From the NCBI GenBank assembly GCA_039196715.1, contig JBCCUP010000003.1:98097-159231 (forward strand): a stretch of DNA of 61,135 nucleotides, written 5' to 3'. Positions within the stretch are counted from its first letter, which is position 1; the number at the start of each line of letters is the position of its first letter. Shown here piece after piece: positions 13,340 through 22,062 of the stretch. The translations under genes were made by a program, and so were the position numbers. This DNA is from Pseudomonadota bacterium. GTDB lineage: Bacteria; Pseudomonadota; Gammaproteobacteria; CALCKW01. Under the pieces are notes generated by a model that had not been told where the DNA came from, made no database searches, and worked only from the letters and a program-made list of their open reading frames with translations.

Positions 13340-14902
13340 TCAGTCGACGGCACGCGGATCCGCACGCAAGACCACACCGCTTGCCGCAATATACAGGCGA
13401 TTGCGGCCGTGCTCACGGGCTTTGCGCGCACCGTCACGGGCCCGGTTGATGAGATCGATGTCCCTTGCATTGGGTCCGCTCGAGGAGACAAGCGCACCGA
13501 AGCTGTAGAGGTCGACCTTGCCAAGGCTCTGCCCGATGCCCATGACCGTCAGCATGAGTTGGCGCGCCGCGACAATGCCACTGGCAGCCGTGCGGTGGGC
13601 AATCACGATGCTGTAGAGGCCGTGTCCGAGGTACGCGAGCCGGTCCGCCTGGATCACACGCTGCTGCAAACGCTGTGTCAGCACCGACACCAGGCTCGGA
13701 TTGGCGGCGACACTCGCGGACGCCCCGGACGCCAACGCAAATTCGCACGCCAGCAGCAGCACGCTGAACTGCAGCCCCGCCTCGGCCTGCAGTCCGCCCT
13801 CGAGGCCGGCGTCGTGTCGAACGATGGCGGCCCCGCCGTCCGCCAACGGCCGGCAGCTCCAGCCGCCCACGTCCGCGGGTTCGCCAGCGGCCACCGCGTC
13901 CGCGAGTGCCTTGCCGGTGCGGCCGGCGAGGTCGGGGTGAACGCCGTCGAGGCGGGTGCCCGACGTCGGCGTCCAGTCGACATCGAGTGCCAGATGGCGC
14001 CGCGCCGACGTGCTGAGATCGATCAGCCCGGCGTGCTTGTCGACGTACAACCAGGTCGCGGGCACGGCGTGCACGAGGGCGTTCAATGACGCGATGCGAC
14101 CCCGCAACCGGGCTTGCTCGGACACCAGGCGACCGATGCCTTCGAGCCGCGCCAGCAGCAGGTCGCCCGGCTCGCTCTTGAACAGGCACGCCACCGCGCC
14201 GGCAGACAGGCTTTGCTGGATGATGTGGTCGGCGTAGTTGCTGGTCAGCACGGCACAGGCGAGCCGACCCTCCGACGCGCTGATGAGTTTGCGGATCAGC
14301 GTGTCGCCGGTCTGCTCGCCCAGGTAGAAATCAACGACCGCGATGTCGAAGGTCGAGGTGGACACCGCCTCGAGGGCCTCCCGCGCACTGGAGACCACGT
14401 CGACGCGGTAGCCCTGCAAGCGCAACAGGTCACCGAAGGCCAGGCGGATGCTTGGCGAATCGTCCACCACCAGCACACTGAGCCCGCCGTCGTTCGCGGC
14501 CTGTTCGGCGACAGCGACCGTGTCGCTGCCGAGCAGGCGACGCAAGGCTTCGCCGACGTAGCGTTGCTGGCGCCAGTCCATCAACCGAGCGCGCGCGCGG
14601 CCGTCAACCCAGGCGCGCGCGCCCGTGCGTTTGGCCTGGCTCAGCACCATCACAGGCAGGTCGTGGTGATCGGGCAGCTCGAGCAGAGCCATGACGCGTT
14701 GCATCGCATCGTTCGGCGCATCCGGCCAACTCAAAACCACACCTTCAAGGGCTGCGCCGTCGTCGTGCAGACGCGATGTCAGCGCGGCCTCGGCGACGTC
14801 CGCGCTCTCGGCACCGATCACGGCAAAGCCGGCCGCCTCGAGTGTGTTGTTGAGCACATAGCGTTGCGTCGCGGACGTTTCTATCGTCAGGATCTGCTGC
14901 AT
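13340..14902 (-). CDS. Multidomain response regulator: degenerate REC, REC, PAS-like, degenerate GGDEF
   Basis: A 520-aa signalling protein. Residues about 1-120 form a receiver-like domain lacking the acidic pair and phospho-Asp (ILTIETSATQRY, VVLSWPDAP). Residues about 140-260 form an intact receiver (VLVVDDSPSIR, phospho-Asp in VVDFYLGEQTGD, Lys in LFKSEPGD). A coiled-coil linker and PAS-like segment (VPATWLYVDKHAGLIDLS) follow. The C-terminal domain has the GGDEF fold pattern, but GHGLYS (13610-13627) replaces the catalytic loop, so diguanylate cyclase activity is unlikely. ATG 14902 is chosen over TTG 14926. No cognate kinase is adjacent. Confidence 0.78.
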   Translation of the reverse strand: MQQILTIETSATQRYVLNNTLEAAGFAVIGAESADVAEAALTSRLHDDGAALEGVVLSWPDAPNDAMQRVMALLELPDHHDLPVMVLSQAKRTGARAWVDGRARARLMDWRQQRYVGEALRRLLGSDTVAVAEQAANDGGLSVLVVDDSPSIRLAFGDLLRLQGYRVDVVSSAREALEAVSTSTFDIAVVDFYLGEQTGDTLIRKLISASEGRLACAVLTSNYADHIIQQSLSAGAVACLFKSEPGDLLLARLEGIGRLVSEQARLRGRIASLNALVHAVPATWLYVDKHAGLIDLSTSARRHLALDVDWTPTSGTRLDGVHPDLAGRTGKALADAVAAGEPADVGGWSCRPLADGGAAIVRHDAGLEGGLQAEAGLQFSVLLLACEFALASGASASVAANPSLVSVLTQRLQQRVIQADRLAYLGHGLYSIVIAHRTAASGIVAARQLMLTVMGIGQSLGKVDLYSFGALVSSSGPNARDIDLINRARDGARKAREHGRNRLYIAASGVVLRADPRAVD

Positions 14903-15034
14903 TGCGGTCGGTCGCCAGCGCTGCAATCACCCGGGCAAGATCGCGGGGTGAGGCGCCAGTCGAAGCATAAAGCATCGGGCGGCCGAACGACAAAAGGCTG
15001 ACACTCCGAGGCAGCGCGTTGCACGCGCCCGGGC

Positions 15035-16909
15035 TCAGCCCTGGCCGCGCCAGGGCGTTGCGCGCCGAATAACGGCACGCATCACCACATCAAAGGCGAG
15101 CCCCATGAGTCCGAGCAGAATGATCGTGACCCAGATCACTTCGTAGTCCGACTGCTTGCGCGCCACGTTCTCGACAAAGCCCAGCCCGGTCGTGCCGGCC
15201 AGCATCTCGGCCGCCACCAAGGTGCCCCAACACACCCCGACGGCGATGCGTACGCCGGTCAGGATATCCGGCAGGGCGTTGGGCAGGATGACCCGCCGGA
15301 GGATCTGCCAATGCGATGCGCCGAGCGAGTGGGCCGCGTGCACCTTTGACAACTGTGTCCCGGTCGCACCGGTGCGCGCCGACACCACCATGATCGCAAA
15401 GGCCACCATGAACAGCAGGAACACCTTACCGTCATCGTGGATGCCGAACACCGTCAGGATCAGCGGTGCCCACGCCAACGGCGGCACGGGCCGGTAAAGC
15501 TCGATCAAGGGGTCGAAGAAGCCCTTGGCCGCGCGCGACAGCCCCATGACCAGCCCGAGCGGCACGCCGAGCACGACACCCATCACCAGGCCGAACAACA
15601 CCCTGACCAGGGAATCCCAGAGGTGTCCGGTCGGCCATGGCACCGAGACGGCCTCGAACTGCCCGGTCACGATCGCCACCGCACGCCCTTTGGCTGTGGC
15701 GGGTACCGAACCGTCTGCCGCGTGGGTTGGCAGTGCACCTGGCACCAGTGCCGCGAGCCCGTCAGGCAACAGCACGCCGACCAGCTCGTTGGCGGGCTTC
15801 CACTCCACCCAGAGCAGTGGCAGTCCCTTGTAGCCGATCCGCGGGTCGACCATGCGCAGGAAGGTGGCCAGGGTGTCGGACGGCTTGGGCAACCAGCGGC
15901 CGGAGCCCTGCTCGCTGCAGGCGCTGTTGCCCGCGACGATGGTGCCGCCGGGCAACGCCAGGGCGTCAATCCAGCGCAAACTGCCCTCGGCCCGGCTTTT
16001 GGCCTGCTCGAGCGTCTGCGCTGCACGGTGGAGCGGTGCGAGCGTGTCCGTGGGGAACACACTGAGGTCGTCAACGCGCCGAAGCACGTTGTTCAGTTGT
16101 TTGTACCAGGCGATGTCGGCGGCCACGGTTGCCGACTCGGACGCGCGAGAGAGCGCACCGCGCAAGGCTGACACCTCGGCTTCCCGCGCAGCTGAGGTGT
16201 TGCGCAACGCAATGAACTGCGTTGCTGCACTGTCGAGCACCCGGCTGACCGCTGCGAACACGCGACCACGCTCGGTCTCCGGCAGGACCGGAATCTCGGT
16301 GGGACCGGCGCCCCAGGCCGGTTGCGCCGCGGCGCGGGCGCGCTCGGCGTCGTCGACAATCACCCGGTAGACCGGGCTGACGAGTGCCGTGGCTGCATTC
16401 TCGAGGGTCAATGCGAGCGCTGAGATCTGCTCGCGTGTCGCCGCCGTGACCCGATCAGGGTCAGCCTGCTGAAGCAACAGTGAGCGCACCCGGGCGAGCA
16501 AATCTCGCTGTCGTGCCTGCGCTGGCGCGTCCGCCGACGCGCCAAGCTCGGCCAGAGCGTCGAGTTGCCGCTGACTGCGCTGCAGCAGTTGCGTCGACTT
16601 GTAGGGTTCACCGCTGAGCGAGAGTGCGCTGGCAAAGGGCCTGAAAGCGTGCTCGACCTTGGCCACCTGACACAGCTCGTTGGCCGCCTGCGGCAGGAAC
16701 ACCCGCGCGGCGTCCCAGGAGAAGGTGAGCCACACCAACAGCAGACTGGACACACCGCACACCACCCAGTGGCCGCCGCCTTCGGTGCGTGCCGGGTTGC
16801 CGAAGACGAGCTTGATCGGCGCCTCTCGACGGCCCTGACGGACACTCCACCACAGGAGCACGATCAGGCCGATGAAGACGAGGCCAATGGCAGACTTCTG
16901 AAGGTCCAT
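15035..16909 (-). CDS. TauC-like ABC transporter permease with a large extracytoplasmic insertion
   Basis: Inner-membrane permease of 624 aa; the TauC/SsuC family is usually about 250-280. The C-terminal 200 residues match TauC closely: FFDPLIELYRPVPPLAWAPL, the EAA loop AAHSLGASHWQILRRVILPN, LTGVRIAVGVCWGTLVAAE, and the end RATPWRGQG. The N-terminus has two membrane segments (about 7-23 and 48-63) and FLPQAANEL, resembling the TauC segment after its first helix. Residues about 66-427, probably periplasmic and rich in Ala/Arg/Gln helices with two Cys, are extra. The binding-protein gene lies 63 nt upstream. No ATPase gene is adjacent. Confidence 0.85.
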   Translation of the reverse strand: MDLQKSAIGLVFIGLIVLLWWSVRQGRREAPIKLVFGNPARTEGGGHWVVCGVSSLLLVWLTFSWDAARVFLPQAANELCQVAKVEHAFRPFASALSLSGEPYKSTQLLQRSQRQLDALAELGASADAPAQARQRDLLARVRSLLLQQADPDRVTAATREQISALALTLENAATALVSPVYRVIVDDAERARAAAQPAWGAGPTEIPVLPETERGRVFAAVSRVLDSAATQFIALRNTSAAREAEVSALRGALSRASESATVAADIAWYKQLNNVLRRVDDLSVFPTDTLAPLHRAAQTLEQAKSRAEGSLRWIDALALPGGTIVAGNSACSEQGSGRWLPKPSDTLATFLRMVDPRIGYKGLPLLWVEWKPANELVGVLLPDGLAALVPGALPTHAADGSVPATAKGRAVAIVTGQFEAVSVPWPTGHLWDSLVRVLFGLVMGVVLGVPLGLVMGLSRAAKGFFDPLIELYRPVPPLAWAPLILTVFGIHDDGKVFLLFMVAFAIMVVSARTGATGTQLSKVHAAHSLGASHWQILRRVILPNALPDILTGVRIAVGVCWGTLVAAEMLAGTTGLGFVENVARKQSDYEVIWVTIILLGLMGLAFDVVMRAVIRRATPWRGQG

Positions 16910-16972
16910 GAGGTCGTTGCGGTCAGCGAATCACCGGCGTCGTGCAGGAACACACTGCGACACGTTGCAGGC

Positions 16973-17956
16973 TCAACGCAGGTAGTCGGTGTCGATCGTG
17001 ACGCTGTAGTCATCGAGCGCGGGGTGCTGCTCGGTCGCGAACATCTTTCCCATGAAGCTGAGCATGCTCAACGCGAGCCCGTTGTCACTGAAGTAGTCGT
17101 TGAGCTGCTCCTCGACGCTCGGGAACGCAAACCCGGCCATCTGCGTGCGGGTACGCTCGACGGTCATGCCTGCATCGGCGGCGATCACGTCGATCTTGCT
17201 GTCGTCCGCCGCGAACGCCGCGTTGGCCTCGTTCGTGACCTCGAGAAAGATGCGCACCAGGTCCGGGTTGTCCTGCAGGAAGGACTCGGTGACCGAGATG
17301 ATGTCGAAGCTGGTGATGCCGGCCGCGGCTTTCTCCTCGGCCGACAACAGCGGCTGCCCCACTTCGCGCATGGCAGTGAGCGAGTTCTCACCGAAGCCAC
17401 AGGCCATCACGACGCTGCCGTCCACCAGCGAAACCGCGGCATCCGCCGGGTCCTGGTCGACGATGGTGATCGCGTTGGCGTCGACGCCAAGGGTCTGCAG
17501 CGTCATGCGAAAACCGAAATCGGCCATGGTGTTCAGCGGCACCGCCACCGTGCGGCCTTCGAGTTCGTTCGCGTTGCGCTTGCCGATGCCGGCGTCGTCG
17601 CGCACGATGCAGTCGTCAGCGGCGCCATAGGCAACCGCAACGCCGACCATCTTGATCGGCGCGTTCGCGTTGACGGCGTTGGCAAACGGCGTGAGACCCT
17701 GGCTGTAGGCAATGTCGATGTCACCGGCGAGCATCGCCTCGGTCATGGCCCCGCCGTTGCCGAAGTTGGTCCAGATCACCTCGACGCCCATCGCGTCATC
17801 GAACGCGCGTTCGACCTTGGCTATCTGATTCGGTGTGGCCCACTCGAGAAAGTACGCCACATTGACCCGGTCGGTGGCCAGCACCGGGGCCGATGCCATG
17901 AGCACACTCAGGGCACCCAGCAGGTGCCGACTCGTTCGATTCGCTTTCACGTTCAT
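16973..17956 (-). CDS. Taurine/nitrate/sulfonate-type ABC transporter substrate-binding protein
   Basis: Periplasmic binding protein of about 327 aa. After a signal peptide (LLGALSVLMASAPVLA) come VNVAYFLEWATPNQIAKVE, a GDIDIAYSQGLTPFANAV segment and LEGRTVAVPLNTMADFGF, the TauA/NMT1 architecture. The ligand (taurine, another sulfonate, or other) cannot be told. The ATG at 17956 directly abuts AGGAGG, so the real start may be GTG 17950, two codons later, at a proper 6-nt spacing. It is followed by its permease; the partner ATPase is not in the window. Confidence 0.86.
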   Translation of the reverse strand: MNVKANRTSRHLLGALSVLMASAPVLATDRVNVAYFLEWATPNQIAKVERAFDDAMGVEVIWTNFGNGGAMTEAMLAGDIDIAYSQGLTPFANAVNANAPIKMVGVAVAYGAADDCIVRDDAGIGKRNANELEGRTVAVPLNTMADFGFRMTLQTLGVDANAITIVDQDPADAAVSLVDGSVVMACGFGENSLTAMREVGQPLLSAEEKAAAGITSFDIISVTESFLQDNPDLVRIFLEVTNEANAAFAADDSKIDVIAADAGMTVERTRTQMAGFAFPSVEEQLNDYFSDNGLALSMLSFMGKMFATEQHPALDDYSVTIDTDYLR

Positions 17957-18139: not shown

Positions 18140-19327
18140 CTAGGGCGACACGCTCTCGACACAGGAGGCAATAATCTCGCCGATCAGACGGCAGTCGTCC
18201 TCGGACACGGTCAGCGGGATGCGCAGATCGAAGAGGGTCGACAGCACGCGGCCGGTTTCTGGCAGGGTCTGCGTGGCCATGTACCGCCACGAGCTGTGCT
18301 GACTGGTGTACCCGTGCGGCTCCTCGGCACCGAACCACTTGAGCTCGACACCGCGTTCGCGCGCGGCCGCGACCAACGCCTGACACGCGTCGCGGTCGAA
18401 GCTCGGCAGCCGAAACTGCAACGAGCTGCCGACAAAATGTTCGGCGTCGGGCCGGGTGCGCAAGCGCAGCGTCGGGTCGCGCTGCAGCACCGCTTCCATC
18501 GCACGGTAGCGCCGCGCCCACCGGTCGACCTGGGCGTCGAGCGCGGGCAGCTGCGGTCGCAGGATAGCGGCACGCAGCTCATCGAGGCGTCCGGAGCAGT
18601 TGGGCATCTCGTACCGGGCCCCGGCAAAGGCCGTGGCGTCCGGTCCCGCGCCGTGGCGCTCGTACAACATGTACGAGCCGGACAAGACGGTTGCGCGAGC
18701 CAGCAAATCCGCATCCCGCGTCACCAGCAGGCCGCCTTCGCCCGAATTGATGTGCTTGTAGGTCTGGGTGCTGAAACACGCAGCAAGCCCGAAGTTGCCG
18801 CTGCGCTCGCCGTTCCAGCGGGCCCCCATGGTGTGCGCACAGTCTTCGATCAGGTCGACCCCGTGCGCGTTGATGAGGGCCATCAAGGCGTCCATGTCAA
18901 CCAGGTGACCGCGCATGTGCGACAGCATCAGCACACGGGCACCGGACGCCTGGATCTTGCGTTCGAGGTCTGCGAGGTCGATCACGGTGTCGCCGTCGCA
19001 CTCCACCAACACCGGCTCACCGCCTGCGTGCACGATCGCACCGGGGACCGGTGCAAGGGTGTAGGCGTTGGTCAGCACGCGCTGGCCGGCCGTCAGCCCG
19101 TAGGCCTTGAGCGCGAGGAACAGCGCGTAGCCACCGGACGTGCACGCCAGGCAATAGGGCGCGCCCTGCCAGGCCGCAAATTCACGCTCGAGCGCCGCTG
19201 CCTCGCTCTCGGCGTCACCGGTCTGGTAGCGGTGCAGTCGGCCGTTGCGCAAGAGGGCCACGGCGCGCTCGATTGCCGCGTCGGGCAAGCCCTCTTGCCG
19301 GGTCAGGTCTCCATCGAATCGGTGCAT
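18140..19327 (-). CDS. DegT/DnrJ/EryC1/StrS-family aminotransferase
   Basis: PLP-dependent enzyme of 395 aa. The family usually aminates keto-sugars of surface glycans or antibiotics. Visible motifs are CTSGGYALFLALKAYG (cofactor phosphate region), IEDCAHTMGA and the Schiff-base Lys (about residue 191) in TQTYKHINSGEGG. Start ATG 19327 follows the response-regulator stop by 25 nt, suggesting it is the third gene of a kinase-regulator-aminotransferase operon. No sugar dehydratase or glycosyltransferase gene is nearby, so the substrate is open; some family members act on non-sugar substrates. Confidence 0.85.
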   Translation of the reverse strand: MHRFDGDLTRQEGLPDAAIERAVALLRNGRLHRYQTGDAESEAAALEREFAAWQGAPYCLACTSGGYALFLALKAYGLTAGQRVLTNAYTLAPVPGAIVHAGGEPVLVECDGDTVIDLADLERKIQASGARVLMLSHMRGHLVDMDALMALINAHGVDLIEDCAHTMGARWNGERSGNFGLAACFSTQTYKHINSGEGGLLVTRDADLLARATVLSGSYMLYERHGAGPDATAFAGARYEMPNCSGRLDELRAAILRPQLPALDAQVDRWARRYRAMEAVLQRDPTLRLRTRPDAEHFVGSSLQFRLPSFDRDACQALVAAARERGVELKWFGAEEPHGYTSQHSSWRYMATQTLPETGRVLSTLFDLRIPLTVSEDDCRLIGEIIASCVESVSP

Positions 19328-19352
19328 GGCGTCTCCGATCGAACGCCGATGC

Positions 19353-19985
19353 TCACTGGTCCAGGAGGTTGGCGGCCATGAGTTGACGAACGAGTTGCTG
19401 CGCATTATCCACGTTGAACTTGTGGAACACACGCGCGCGGTGGATCTCGACGGTGCGCGGGCTCAGCCCGAGCTGCCGTGCGACGACTTTGTTGGCGTGG
19501 CCGGCACAGACGCCGTACATCACGTCGCGCTCACGCGCCGTCAGGCTGTCGAGGCTGCGCTGTGCGTCCGCGGTTGCGTGTGCGGTGGCACTGGCCCGCT
19601 CGGCCTGCTCGCTCGCCTCGGCGACGACATCGAGCAAGTCGCTGTCGTTGAACGGTTTTTCCAGGAAGCTGAAGGCGCCTTTCTGGATGGCCTTGACGGC
19701 CATGGCGATATCACCGTGGCCACTCATGAACACCAGCGGCGTGTGAACGTGCCGCGCGCGCAGCTGCTCGTGCGCCGCGAGCCCGTTGGTGCCGGGCATG
19801 CGCACGTCCATCAGCACCACTGCATGGGCGCTGTCACTGCCGTCGTAGCGCGCGAGAAAATCGTCGGCGCTGTCATACTCGCGGGTCGAGTAGCGCTCGG
19901 CCTTGAGCAGCAGCGCCAGGGCGTCGCGGATGTCGGCCTCATCATCGACTATGTGCACCGTCACGGACGGCATCGGATCGGTCAT
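19353..19985 (-). CDS. FixJ/TodT-type response regulator
   Basis: Two-domain regulator of 210 aa. The receiver (residues about 8-125) has the acidic pair VDDE (Asp14-Asp15), phospho-Asp60 in VLMDVRMPG, and a Lys in FLEKPF. A LuxR-type DNA-binding domain (about 140-205) carries LTARERDVM and NKVVARQLGLSPRTVEIHRA. The family gives FixL/FixJ-like transcription activation. Its gene starts 9 nt after the stop of the membrane kinase gene, so the two are a cognate pair. Confidence 0.92.
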   Translation of the reverse strand: MTDPMPSVTVHIVDDEADIRDALALLLKAERYSTREYDSADDFLARYDGSDSAHAVVLMDVRMPGTNGLAAHEQLRARHVHTPLVFMSGHGDIAMAVKAIQKGAFSFLEKPFNDSDLLDVVAEASEQAERASATAHATADAQRSLDSLTARERDVMYGVCAGHANKVVARQLGLSPRTVEIHRARVFHKFNVDNAQQLVRQLMAANLLDQ

Positions 19986-19994
19986 GTGTGTCCC

Positions 19995-21986
19995 CTAACT
20001 GGCGATCCGCTGTTGACCACGCTGGTCAGCCACCGGCAACCGCACGCGCGCGCAGCAGCCGCTGCTCACATCGACGAAGTTGAGGTCGCCGTCGTGCGCT
20101 TCAACGATAGCACGCGAGATGCTCAATCCGAGGCCGAGACCGTTCGGGCTTTCCGAACGGAAGGGTTCGAACACCGCGTTGCGCGAGCCGGAGGGCAAAC
20201 CCGGGCCATTGTCGCGCACGTCCATCAGCGCGCTGCCGTCCTGCAGTCGGATCCGCACGGTGATGCGGGGCTCGTAGGTGTCGGCCTGCACCATGGCCTG
20301 CATGGCGTTGCGCACCAGGTTGACCAGCACCTGGTGGATCTGCACGCGCGACACGCTGACCAGGATGCGCTGCTTCGGCGCGTCGAGCATCAGCGCCACG
20401 CGGCTCTTGCGGGATTCGAAGGCCAGCAGCGAGAACACCTCTTGAACGAGCTTGTCGAGCGCCTGGGTTTCGCGCTCCGCCGGCGACTTGCGCACGAATT
20501 CGCGCATGTGCTGAATGATTTCGGCCGCCCGCTGGGCGTTGTGGACCGTGCGGCTGATCGCACCACGTGCTTCGGCGGCGTCCGGGTTGTCCCGCAACAG
20601 GCGCTCACTCGCCTGGGCGAAGGTGATCACCGCTGTGAGCGGTTGGTTGAGCTCGTGCGCGAGGCCGCCGGCCATCTGCGCCATGTCGCTCAGGCGGCCG
20701 AGGTGCGTGAGGTCGTCCAGGTGCTGACGGGCCTCCTCCTGCGCAACACGCTGCGCACTGATATCGTTGCCGACCACGATGACCGAGACCAGCTCGCCCT
20801 GCTCGAGGATCGGCGAGAGCTGCCACTGCACCCAGGTACCGTCGTTTTCGCTTTGCAGCTCCACACGCGAACCGGCGCGCAGTGCACGCCAGACCTGCGC
20901 CGGGGTCTCGCCGGCCTGATCACACAGCCAATTGAGTGCCGCCGCTCCGCCGCCCTCCAGGGTGGGCAGCCAGCGGTGCGTGTTGGGCGTGGCAAAAACG
21001 GTGTTGCCCGCAGCGTCAAGCTTGCACACACACTCCGACTGGTTCTCGACGATCAGCCGGTAGCGCGTCTCACTTTCACGCAAGCGCATCACGGCGTCGC
21101 GCCGCTCGGCGAGCGCCGAGGTCAGCAGCAGTGTGGTGCAGGAGAGCAACCCGAGGTTGCCGTGCAACAGCAGCAGGTTCTCGACAGTCGAACCGCGCGT
21201 GAACGGCCCCATACCGGCAGCTGTGGCCCAAAGGGCAAAGGCGGCGTGTACCGCCAGCAGGAGCGCCAGCCAACGCATCGAGACCTTGAACGCGGCCCAG
21301 AGCAGGATCGGGTAGGCGACAAACGCGAGCGGCAGTTCCATGGCGAAGCGCTCGGGCAGCAGGTCGTCGAACACCACGGCCGATTGCACCACCACCACAG
21401 CGAGGGTGATCCACTCGTACCGGCCCGGCCACGCCGGGGGCTGCCGCAGCCCTTTGGCGAGTGGCACGATCAGCAGTATTGCGATCGCTTCCGTGGCCCA
21501 GCACACCCACCAGAACAGGCTCCACTGCGCGGTGGGCATGCCGTCGAGCTGCCACATCAATCCGATCGACAGCCCACCGGAGATCCCCGGGGCGACGAAC
21601 ACCGCGAGCGCGAGAAACCAGAGCACCTCCGAGACCGATCCGAACAGCCGCTTCACGCCGGCGGCACGCATGAGTGCAACGCCGATCATGCCGGTTGCGC
21701 AGGCGCCGACCACACGCCCGGCGAGCATCGACGCAGTGTGGTCCATGAGCCACCCGTTGACCAGCGGCCCGGCGAGCACGACCGGTACCGCGAGTCGCCA
21801 GGGCAGCCACCACATCGCAAGCAGCGACACGGCGCCGATTGGCCAGAACAGCATTTGCTCGTGGTGCTGGAGTGCGAGTTGATCACCTGCCCAGGCGCAG
21901 ACCACGGCCAACAGGGCGAGAACGGCCGCAAGCCCGGCCTGACCGGCGGCGCTGGGCGGGGCGGGCTGAGCTTCTGTGATGTTCAT
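19995..21986 (-). CDS. Membrane sensor histidine kinase: MASE1-like, PAS, HisKA, HATPase
   Basis: Kinase of 663 aa. The N-terminal ~290 residues hold about eight hydrophobic helices resembling a MASE1-type integral membrane sensor. A PAS domain follows (RYRLIVENQSECVCKLDAAG to VVVGNDISAQR). HisKA has its phospho-accepting His at about residue 443 (MAGGLAHELNQPLTAV), and the ATPase domain shows NLVRNAMQAM (N box), DVRDNGPGLP (G1) and GLGLGLSISRAIVEAH (G2). This layout matches FixL-type kinases that pair with FixJ-type regulators, as here. ATG 21986 is preferred over an earlier start (22016). The signal is unknown. Confidence 0.9.
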   Translation of the reverse strand: MNITEAQPAPPSAAGQAGLAAVLALLAVVCAWAGDQLALQHHEQMLFWPIGAVSLLAMWWLPWRLAVPVVLAGPLVNGWLMDHTASMLAGRVVGACATGMIGVALMRAAGVKRLFGSVSEVLWFLALAVFVAPGISGGLSIGLMWQLDGMPTAQWSLFWWVCWATEAIAILLIVPLAKGLRQPPAWPGRYEWITLAVVVVQSAVVFDDLLPERFAMELPLAFVAYPILLWAAFKVSMRWLALLLAVHAAFALWATAAGMGPFTRGSTVENLLLLHGNLGLLSCTTLLLTSALAERRDAVMRLRESETRYRLIVENQSECVCKLDAAGNTVFATPNTHRWLPTLEGGGAAALNWLCDQAGETPAQVWRALRAGSRVELQSENDGTWVQWQLSPILEQGELVSVIVVGNDISAQRVAQEEARQHLDDLTHLGRLSDMAQMAGGLAHELNQPLTAVITFAQASERLLRDNPDAAEARGAISRTVHNAQRAAEIIQHMREFVRKSPAERETQALDKLVQEVFSLLAFESRKSRVALMLDAPKQRILVSVSRVQIHQVLVNLVRNAMQAMVQADTYEPRITVRIRLQDGSALMDVRDNGPGLPSGSRNAVFEPFRSESPNGLGLGLSISRAIVEAHDGDLNFVDVSSGCCARVRLPVADQRGQQRIAS

Positions 21987-22062
21987 GTCATCAGTGTACC
22001 GGTGGCGTTCAGCCACGCCATACGCGCGACTACGGCAGAGGGCTTAGACCGGCCCGTTGGCT

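Follow-up and report, generated by a model that had tools for sequence, protein, structure and literature searches.

The usual picture of a Type I ABC importer is a bare transmembrane pore served by a soluble substrate-binding protein (SBP), and in importers of the taurine/sulfonate type the permease is established to be a homodimer. A more elaborate plan is known from MalF, whose P2 domain occupies a different inter-helix loop from the one described here and belongs to one subunit of a heterodimer. MalF residues 91-271, which form P2, contact MalE (PMC3150292). As for taurine importers themselves, uptake of 14C-taurine is documented for 'Ca. P. ubique' HTCC1062, which carries tauABC (PMC3090418), and in Ruegeria pomeroyi mutants of tauABC show poor growth on taurine (PMC10130141).

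Here we describe a TauC-like permease gene in a 61,135-nucleotide stretch of gammaproteobacterial DNA (the window), whose product carries a conserved helical domain inside the permease fold; the coordinates of its parts and of its neighbourhood are collected in Table 1.

Table 1. Features of the permease locus; positions are those of the window and residues those of the encoded protein.
Feature	Residues	Position	Strand	Basis
TauC-like ABC importer permease gene	624 aa	15035..16909	-	ORF, ATG start
Extra N-terminal helix TM0	2-29	16823..16906	-	DSSP of model, hydropathy, alignment starting at ~43
TM1 of the TauC fold	46-65	16715..16774	-	Hydropathy, DSSP of model, structural alignment
Main insertion: two helical bundles and β-hairpin, predicted periplasmic	66-337	15899..16714	-	Domain model, homologues
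Cys80, invariant	80	16670..16672	-	79/79 homologues
Cys331, invariant	331	15917..15919	-	79/79 homologues
TauC periplasmic segment R338-WLPKPSDTLATFLRMVD	338-355	15845..15898	-	Near-invariant in 53 homologues, sequence reading
Second extra segment, WLPKPSDTL motif to next TM helix	356-427	15629..15844	-	Homologues, model
Permease core, EAA-type loop AAHSLGASHWQIL	428-624	15038..15628	-	Pfam, NCBIfam, alignment
SBP-permease gap, 63 bp, ATPase position in relatives		16910..16972	-	Comparison with 79/79 relatives
TauA/SsuA-like SBP gene (MNVKANR...)	327 aa from ATG	16973..17956	-	NMT1, E 2.9e-12

The insertion lies inside a TauC-type fold

By its sequence, the permease reads as a TauC-like protein that falls outside the TauC equivalog. 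The Pfam family BPD_transp_1, matched in all 53 homologues examined with Pfam, covers only residues 448-617 (E 1.4e-26, 93.8 bits vs a gathering score of 26.4), and the best NCBIfam models (TauC, SaoP, NtrB and SsuC) reach residues 428-623 only, all of them below their equivalog cut-offs (190 bits vs 342 for the TauC equivalog PRK10160). These matches bear out the TauC-type C-terminal permease recognised in the earlier note. The remaining ~430 residues match no Pfam or NCBIfam family, and the insertion is therefore not the common annotated part of the permease family that the same note had considered it might prove to be.

A full-chain AlphaFold2 model was built on 53 homologues, with helices read by DSSP. 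Its residues 43-621 align in VIA-align with residues 24-278 of CmpB (9ua0_A; Z 18.1, 240 aligned, 4.3 Å), and Foldseek with the full model matches solved permeases of the NitT/TauT group at E 6.8e-8. Since TM1 and the core align as a single CmpB-type fold, the insertion lies inside the fold rather than being fused to an end, as had been argued from the letters alone. We read the protein as the permease subunit of a Type I ABC importer belonging to the taurine/sulfonate (NitT/TauT) group. Five core TM helices are modelled from residue 429 on, with the EAA-type loop at about residues 524-536.

The aligned range begins at about residue 43, which leaves TM0 outside the CmpB/NrtB fold. A basic loop with an invariant VFGxP motif separates TM0 from TM1, which spans residues 46-63 in the model, and this loop, being basic, is probably cytoplasmic. 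The insertion thus does follow TM1 of the TauC fold, as first read, but TM0 makes that helix the second of the chain and not the first. The assignment of FLPQAANEL to the TauC segment just after the first helix fell: the true counterpart of FLPxPxxV in ordinary TauC is R338-WLPKPSDTL (338-346), downstream of the insertion and on its far side. This segment also divides the extra sequence, previously taken as one stretch of about residues 66-427, into two pieces, 66-337 and 356-427. With a homologue from the same genus (L010), the permease shares 52% identity along the whole chain and about 35% in the insertion.

The insertion is predicted to be an ordered domain of an undescribed family

Modelled alone from 55 sequences, residues 70-342 reach a mean pLDDT of 92.9 and a pTM of 0.87, with nine or ten helices arranged in two bundles and a β-hairpin last; in the full-chain model the helices run to residue 318 and a small β element follows. 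This predicted order speaks against the cytoplasmic disorder that had been named as a possible outcome. By family topology the insertion would face the periplasm, because the EAA-type loop is cytoplasmic and the core has five helices; together with an invariant pair of cysteines, this upholds the periplasmic location first suggested. In all 79 near full-length homologues the insertion measures 266-285 aa and holds exactly two cysteines, Cys80 and Cys331, near its opposite ends, which are likely to form a disulfide.

Conservation is distributed unevenly, at 0.71 and 0.78 in the membrane-proximal ends of the insertion, 0.65 in the inter-bundle linker and as low as 0.41 and 0.48 in the two bundles, against 0.87 in the permease core. 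Low bundle conservation combined with conserved ends and linker is less what a pocket would show than what a scaffold or contact domain would. Two functions had been put forward in the earlier note; the low conservation of the bundles weakens an additional ligand-binding domain, and docking, which we infer, stays the better of the two suggestions. Judged by its homologues, the insertion is a real, conserved domain and not a product of chance, because one relative is 52% identical along the whole chain, 79 homologues carry the insertion and its cysteine pair is invariant.

Across the 53 homologues, no Pfam family was consistently matched by the insertion. Foldseek of the domain model against the PDB returned nothing at E ≤ 0.001, a search of the PDB by sequence gave chance or coiled-coil matches only (e.g. 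Csy2, E 0.0028), a profile search of the PDB gave generic coiled coils only, and the insertion alone had no match among plasmids and phages. No description of it turned up in the open-access papers searched. The domain family has neither a Pfam or NCBIfam model nor a confident PDB match, and annotation pipelines miss the domain because such a model is lacking.

The domain is common in SAR11 and rare in the other Proteobacteria sampled

A scan of GTDB species genomes with a two-sequence alignment as query (a single-sequence query found nothing) returned at least 555 loci encoding relatives, and those listed fall in Granulosicoccaceae, Leucothrix, Cocleimonas, other Gammaproteobacteria, several Alphaproteobacteria and many Pelagibacteraceae. 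Among sampled genomes, the domain is present in 65 of 147 from the family of a SAR11 genome, in 5 of 149 from the family of a Rhodobacteraceae MAG and in 4 of 369 from the window's class, and in a phylum-wide sample of 398 genomes the sole true match is the window's own genome. A weak match in the latter sample (L096) was rejected as an unrelated coiled-coil ATPase. The insertion is not peculiar to the source genome: it is standard in a subfamily that occurs commonly in SAR11; in the Proteobacteria sampled outside the SAR11 family, it is rare. In the ocean no other bacteria are as abundant as SAR11, and mapping the phylogenetic spread, a check that had been proposed for the insertion, shows that it is no local oddity.

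Operon organisation and probable substrate

The binding protein is encoded separately, as had been noted, by a gene whose longest ORF extends to 18133; its product scores 97.6 bits against TIGR01729, below the cut-off. The best 80 of the at least 555 relatives share the order SBP, TauB-like ATPase, permease: the ATPase lies directly upstream of the permease in all 79 that have upstream DNA, and the SBP gene precedes the ATPase in most with enough flank. Against these 79, the window operon alone is without an ATPase, neither gene nor remnant having been found in it, and so the locus lacks the cognate ATPase of a complete ABC importer operon. Within the genome, the TauB-like protein closest to such an ATPase belongs to an operon on contig C8 and is 69% identical to the ATPase of a same-genus genome (G002); it may be shared with the window permease. 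Alternatively, the ATPase gene may have been lost in assembly.

Directly upstream of the SBP gene lies a DegT-family aminotransferase gene (18140-19432, minus strand). A homologue 58% identical to it adjoins a TauABC-like operon (L118), and its C-terminal part has a 62% identical counterpart beside tauA in Ancylobacter (L126); the enzyme is possibly an amine or sulfonate enzyme tied to such transporters. Further upstream, a LuxR-type response regulator and a MASE1 histidine kinase (19353-22016, minus strand) possibly regulate the tau-like genes. A 528-aa protein (13340-14926, minus strand) has a single clear receiver domain (151-261), and Pfam recognises no output domain in it.

Some relatives' loci adjoin genes for Xsc (sulfoacetaldehyde acetyltransferase; 931 bits, cut-off 676), an AptA-type omega-aminotransferase (565.6 bits, cut-off 500) and alanine dehydrogenase (484 bits, cut-off 392); a Rhodobacteraceae-type aminotransferase (L053) scores below the cut-off. 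Because some relatives' operons adjoin these three enzymes, taurine or a closely related sulfonate is the probable substrate. For the family, gene context supports this assignment well, and taurine would then be the substrate of the window permease too; the host genome carries Xsc on another contig (954 bits). Going by family members, the TauC of HTCC1062 would also have the insertion. Plain TauC of ~275 aa, without the insertion, occurs in equivalent taurine operons, so that taurine import in itself does not depend on the domain.

A second, Ig-like insertion at the same site

The closest other permease in the genome, a protein of 422 aa encoded on contig C8 (L002:1498-2766, minus strand), sits in an operon complete with ATPase and SBP genes and has a Big_9 Ig-like domain where the helical domain is inserted in the window permease. 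Ig-type relatives are found on Ruegeria and Paracoccus plasmids and in other genomes of the window's class. They resemble the helical type in having TM0 (for which we claim no homology after an hhalign comparison of the N-terminal parts), in an FG(D/N) motif before TM1, in the insertion site and in the SBP-ATPase-permease operon, but their insert is Ig-like, ~120-130 aa long and without Cys, and the second segment is absent. The Ig inserts of L002 and L117 (residues ~78-190) look circularly permuted, with the C-terminal part of Big_9 (profile 60-88) at residues 78-105, ahead of the cadherin-like start; in L002, Cadherin_4 positions 16-68 match residues 126-185.

In a tree of permease cores, the helical type forms a single clade (100/100), as does the Ig type (97/99), and the placement that decides whether the two are sisters has a support of 48/23, with AU p values of 0.22 and 0.45 for the alternatives. 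It is conceivable, though we hold it rather doubtful, that this TauC-like loop is a hot spot into which two unrelated folds have been inserted, both capturing the SBP in dilute seawater. With three permease forms (plain, Ig and helical), two of them in one genome, the role of the domain can be put to the test.

A putative docking platform for the binding protein

We propose, with a probability of roughly one half, that the helical domain is a MalF-P2-like platform that docks or positions the binding protein and couples docking to transport. In this subfamily the periplasmic loop between TM1 and TM2 has grown into a helical domain of ~270 residues, predicted to be ordered, with TM0 ahead of it; because permeases of such importers are homodimeric, two copies of the domain would stand on either side of the pore's outer opening, where they might catch, orient or retain the loaded SBP and couple its docking to the transport cycle. 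Both the contact with the SBP and the effect on transport are what we infer. Mirror-tree partial correlation is 0.40 between insertion and SBP and also 0.47 between insertion and ATPase. That streamlined SAR11-family genomes keep the domain is counted towards docking, as are its place inside the fold, its predicted order, the invariant cysteines, the gene order shared by relatives and the neighbouring taurine enzymes. Against it we count the plain TauC of equivalent taurine operons and the sensor-like shape of the two bundles.

Among the shapes that VIA-align ranks closest to the insertion are those of periplasmic sensors, namely the HBM domain of McpS (Z 10.6, 166 aligned, 9.1 Å) and TorS (Z 10.3), with McpZ (Z 8.6) and PilJ (Z 8.4) also near the top, and one of the 53 members matches Pfam HBM (PF16591) at E 0.034, short of the gathering score. 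The insertion could on these grounds be a periplasmic helical bimodular sensor whose binding of taurine or some other metabolite would gate or inhibit transport. We consider this unlikely: the Z values lie below the bar of ~13 for helical bundles, at rmsd values of 9-10 Å, the Foldseek and PDB profile searches described above yield nothing more specific than generic coiled coils, and the bundles are poorly conserved. Pfam HBM was absent from 56 genomes of the window's class, and the two-bundle likeness may reflect a common arrangement only.

About equally improbable is a spacer or envelope-organising domain that sets geometry, dimer stability or the distance to the peptidoglycan and for which any fold would do. 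The Ig-like Big_9 domain in the equivalent loop of related permeases, including the own-genome paralogue, would suit such a role, as would the fast evolution of the bundles; within the helical type, however, length is constant and the ends, linker and cysteine pair are strictly conserved, and streamlined genomes would have no need to retain a pure spacer. A built-in second binding site that hands on substrate or replaces the soluble SBP is highly improbable, for although fused SBP-permease architectures exist (OpuA is among the structural matches of the full model), the window, like most relatives whose flanks are long enough, retains a separate SBP gene beside the permease, and the domain is an all-helical bundle rather than an SBP fold. 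The presence of a large, conserved domain in the taurine-type importer of very abundant, streamlined ocean bacteria points to altered SBP docking or gating where substrate is in short supply.

Comparison with described systems

With E. coli TauC (PRK10160) the window permease shares the core, at 190 bits over residues 428-623, and, through its relatives, taurine-linked operons; the TauC models, of ~275 aa, differ in having neither TM0 nor the helical insertion nor the second segment. The bicarbonate and nitrate permeases CmpB and NrtB (9ua0, 8wm8) have the same Type I fold including TM1 (Z 17-18) at ~24-27% identity, without a periplasmic domain between TM1 and TM2. Sensors of the HBM/TorS type (McpS, TorS, PilJ) stack two periplasmic helical bundles with both ends at the membrane, as the insertion is predicted to do, but they do so outside transporters, at Z 8-10.6 and 8-10 Å and with no above-threshold sequence match. 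The proposed role has a parallel in MalF P2, to which no sequence relation is shown; P2 likewise extends the permease of a Type I importer by a large periplasmic insert, and it touches the SBP (PMC3150292).
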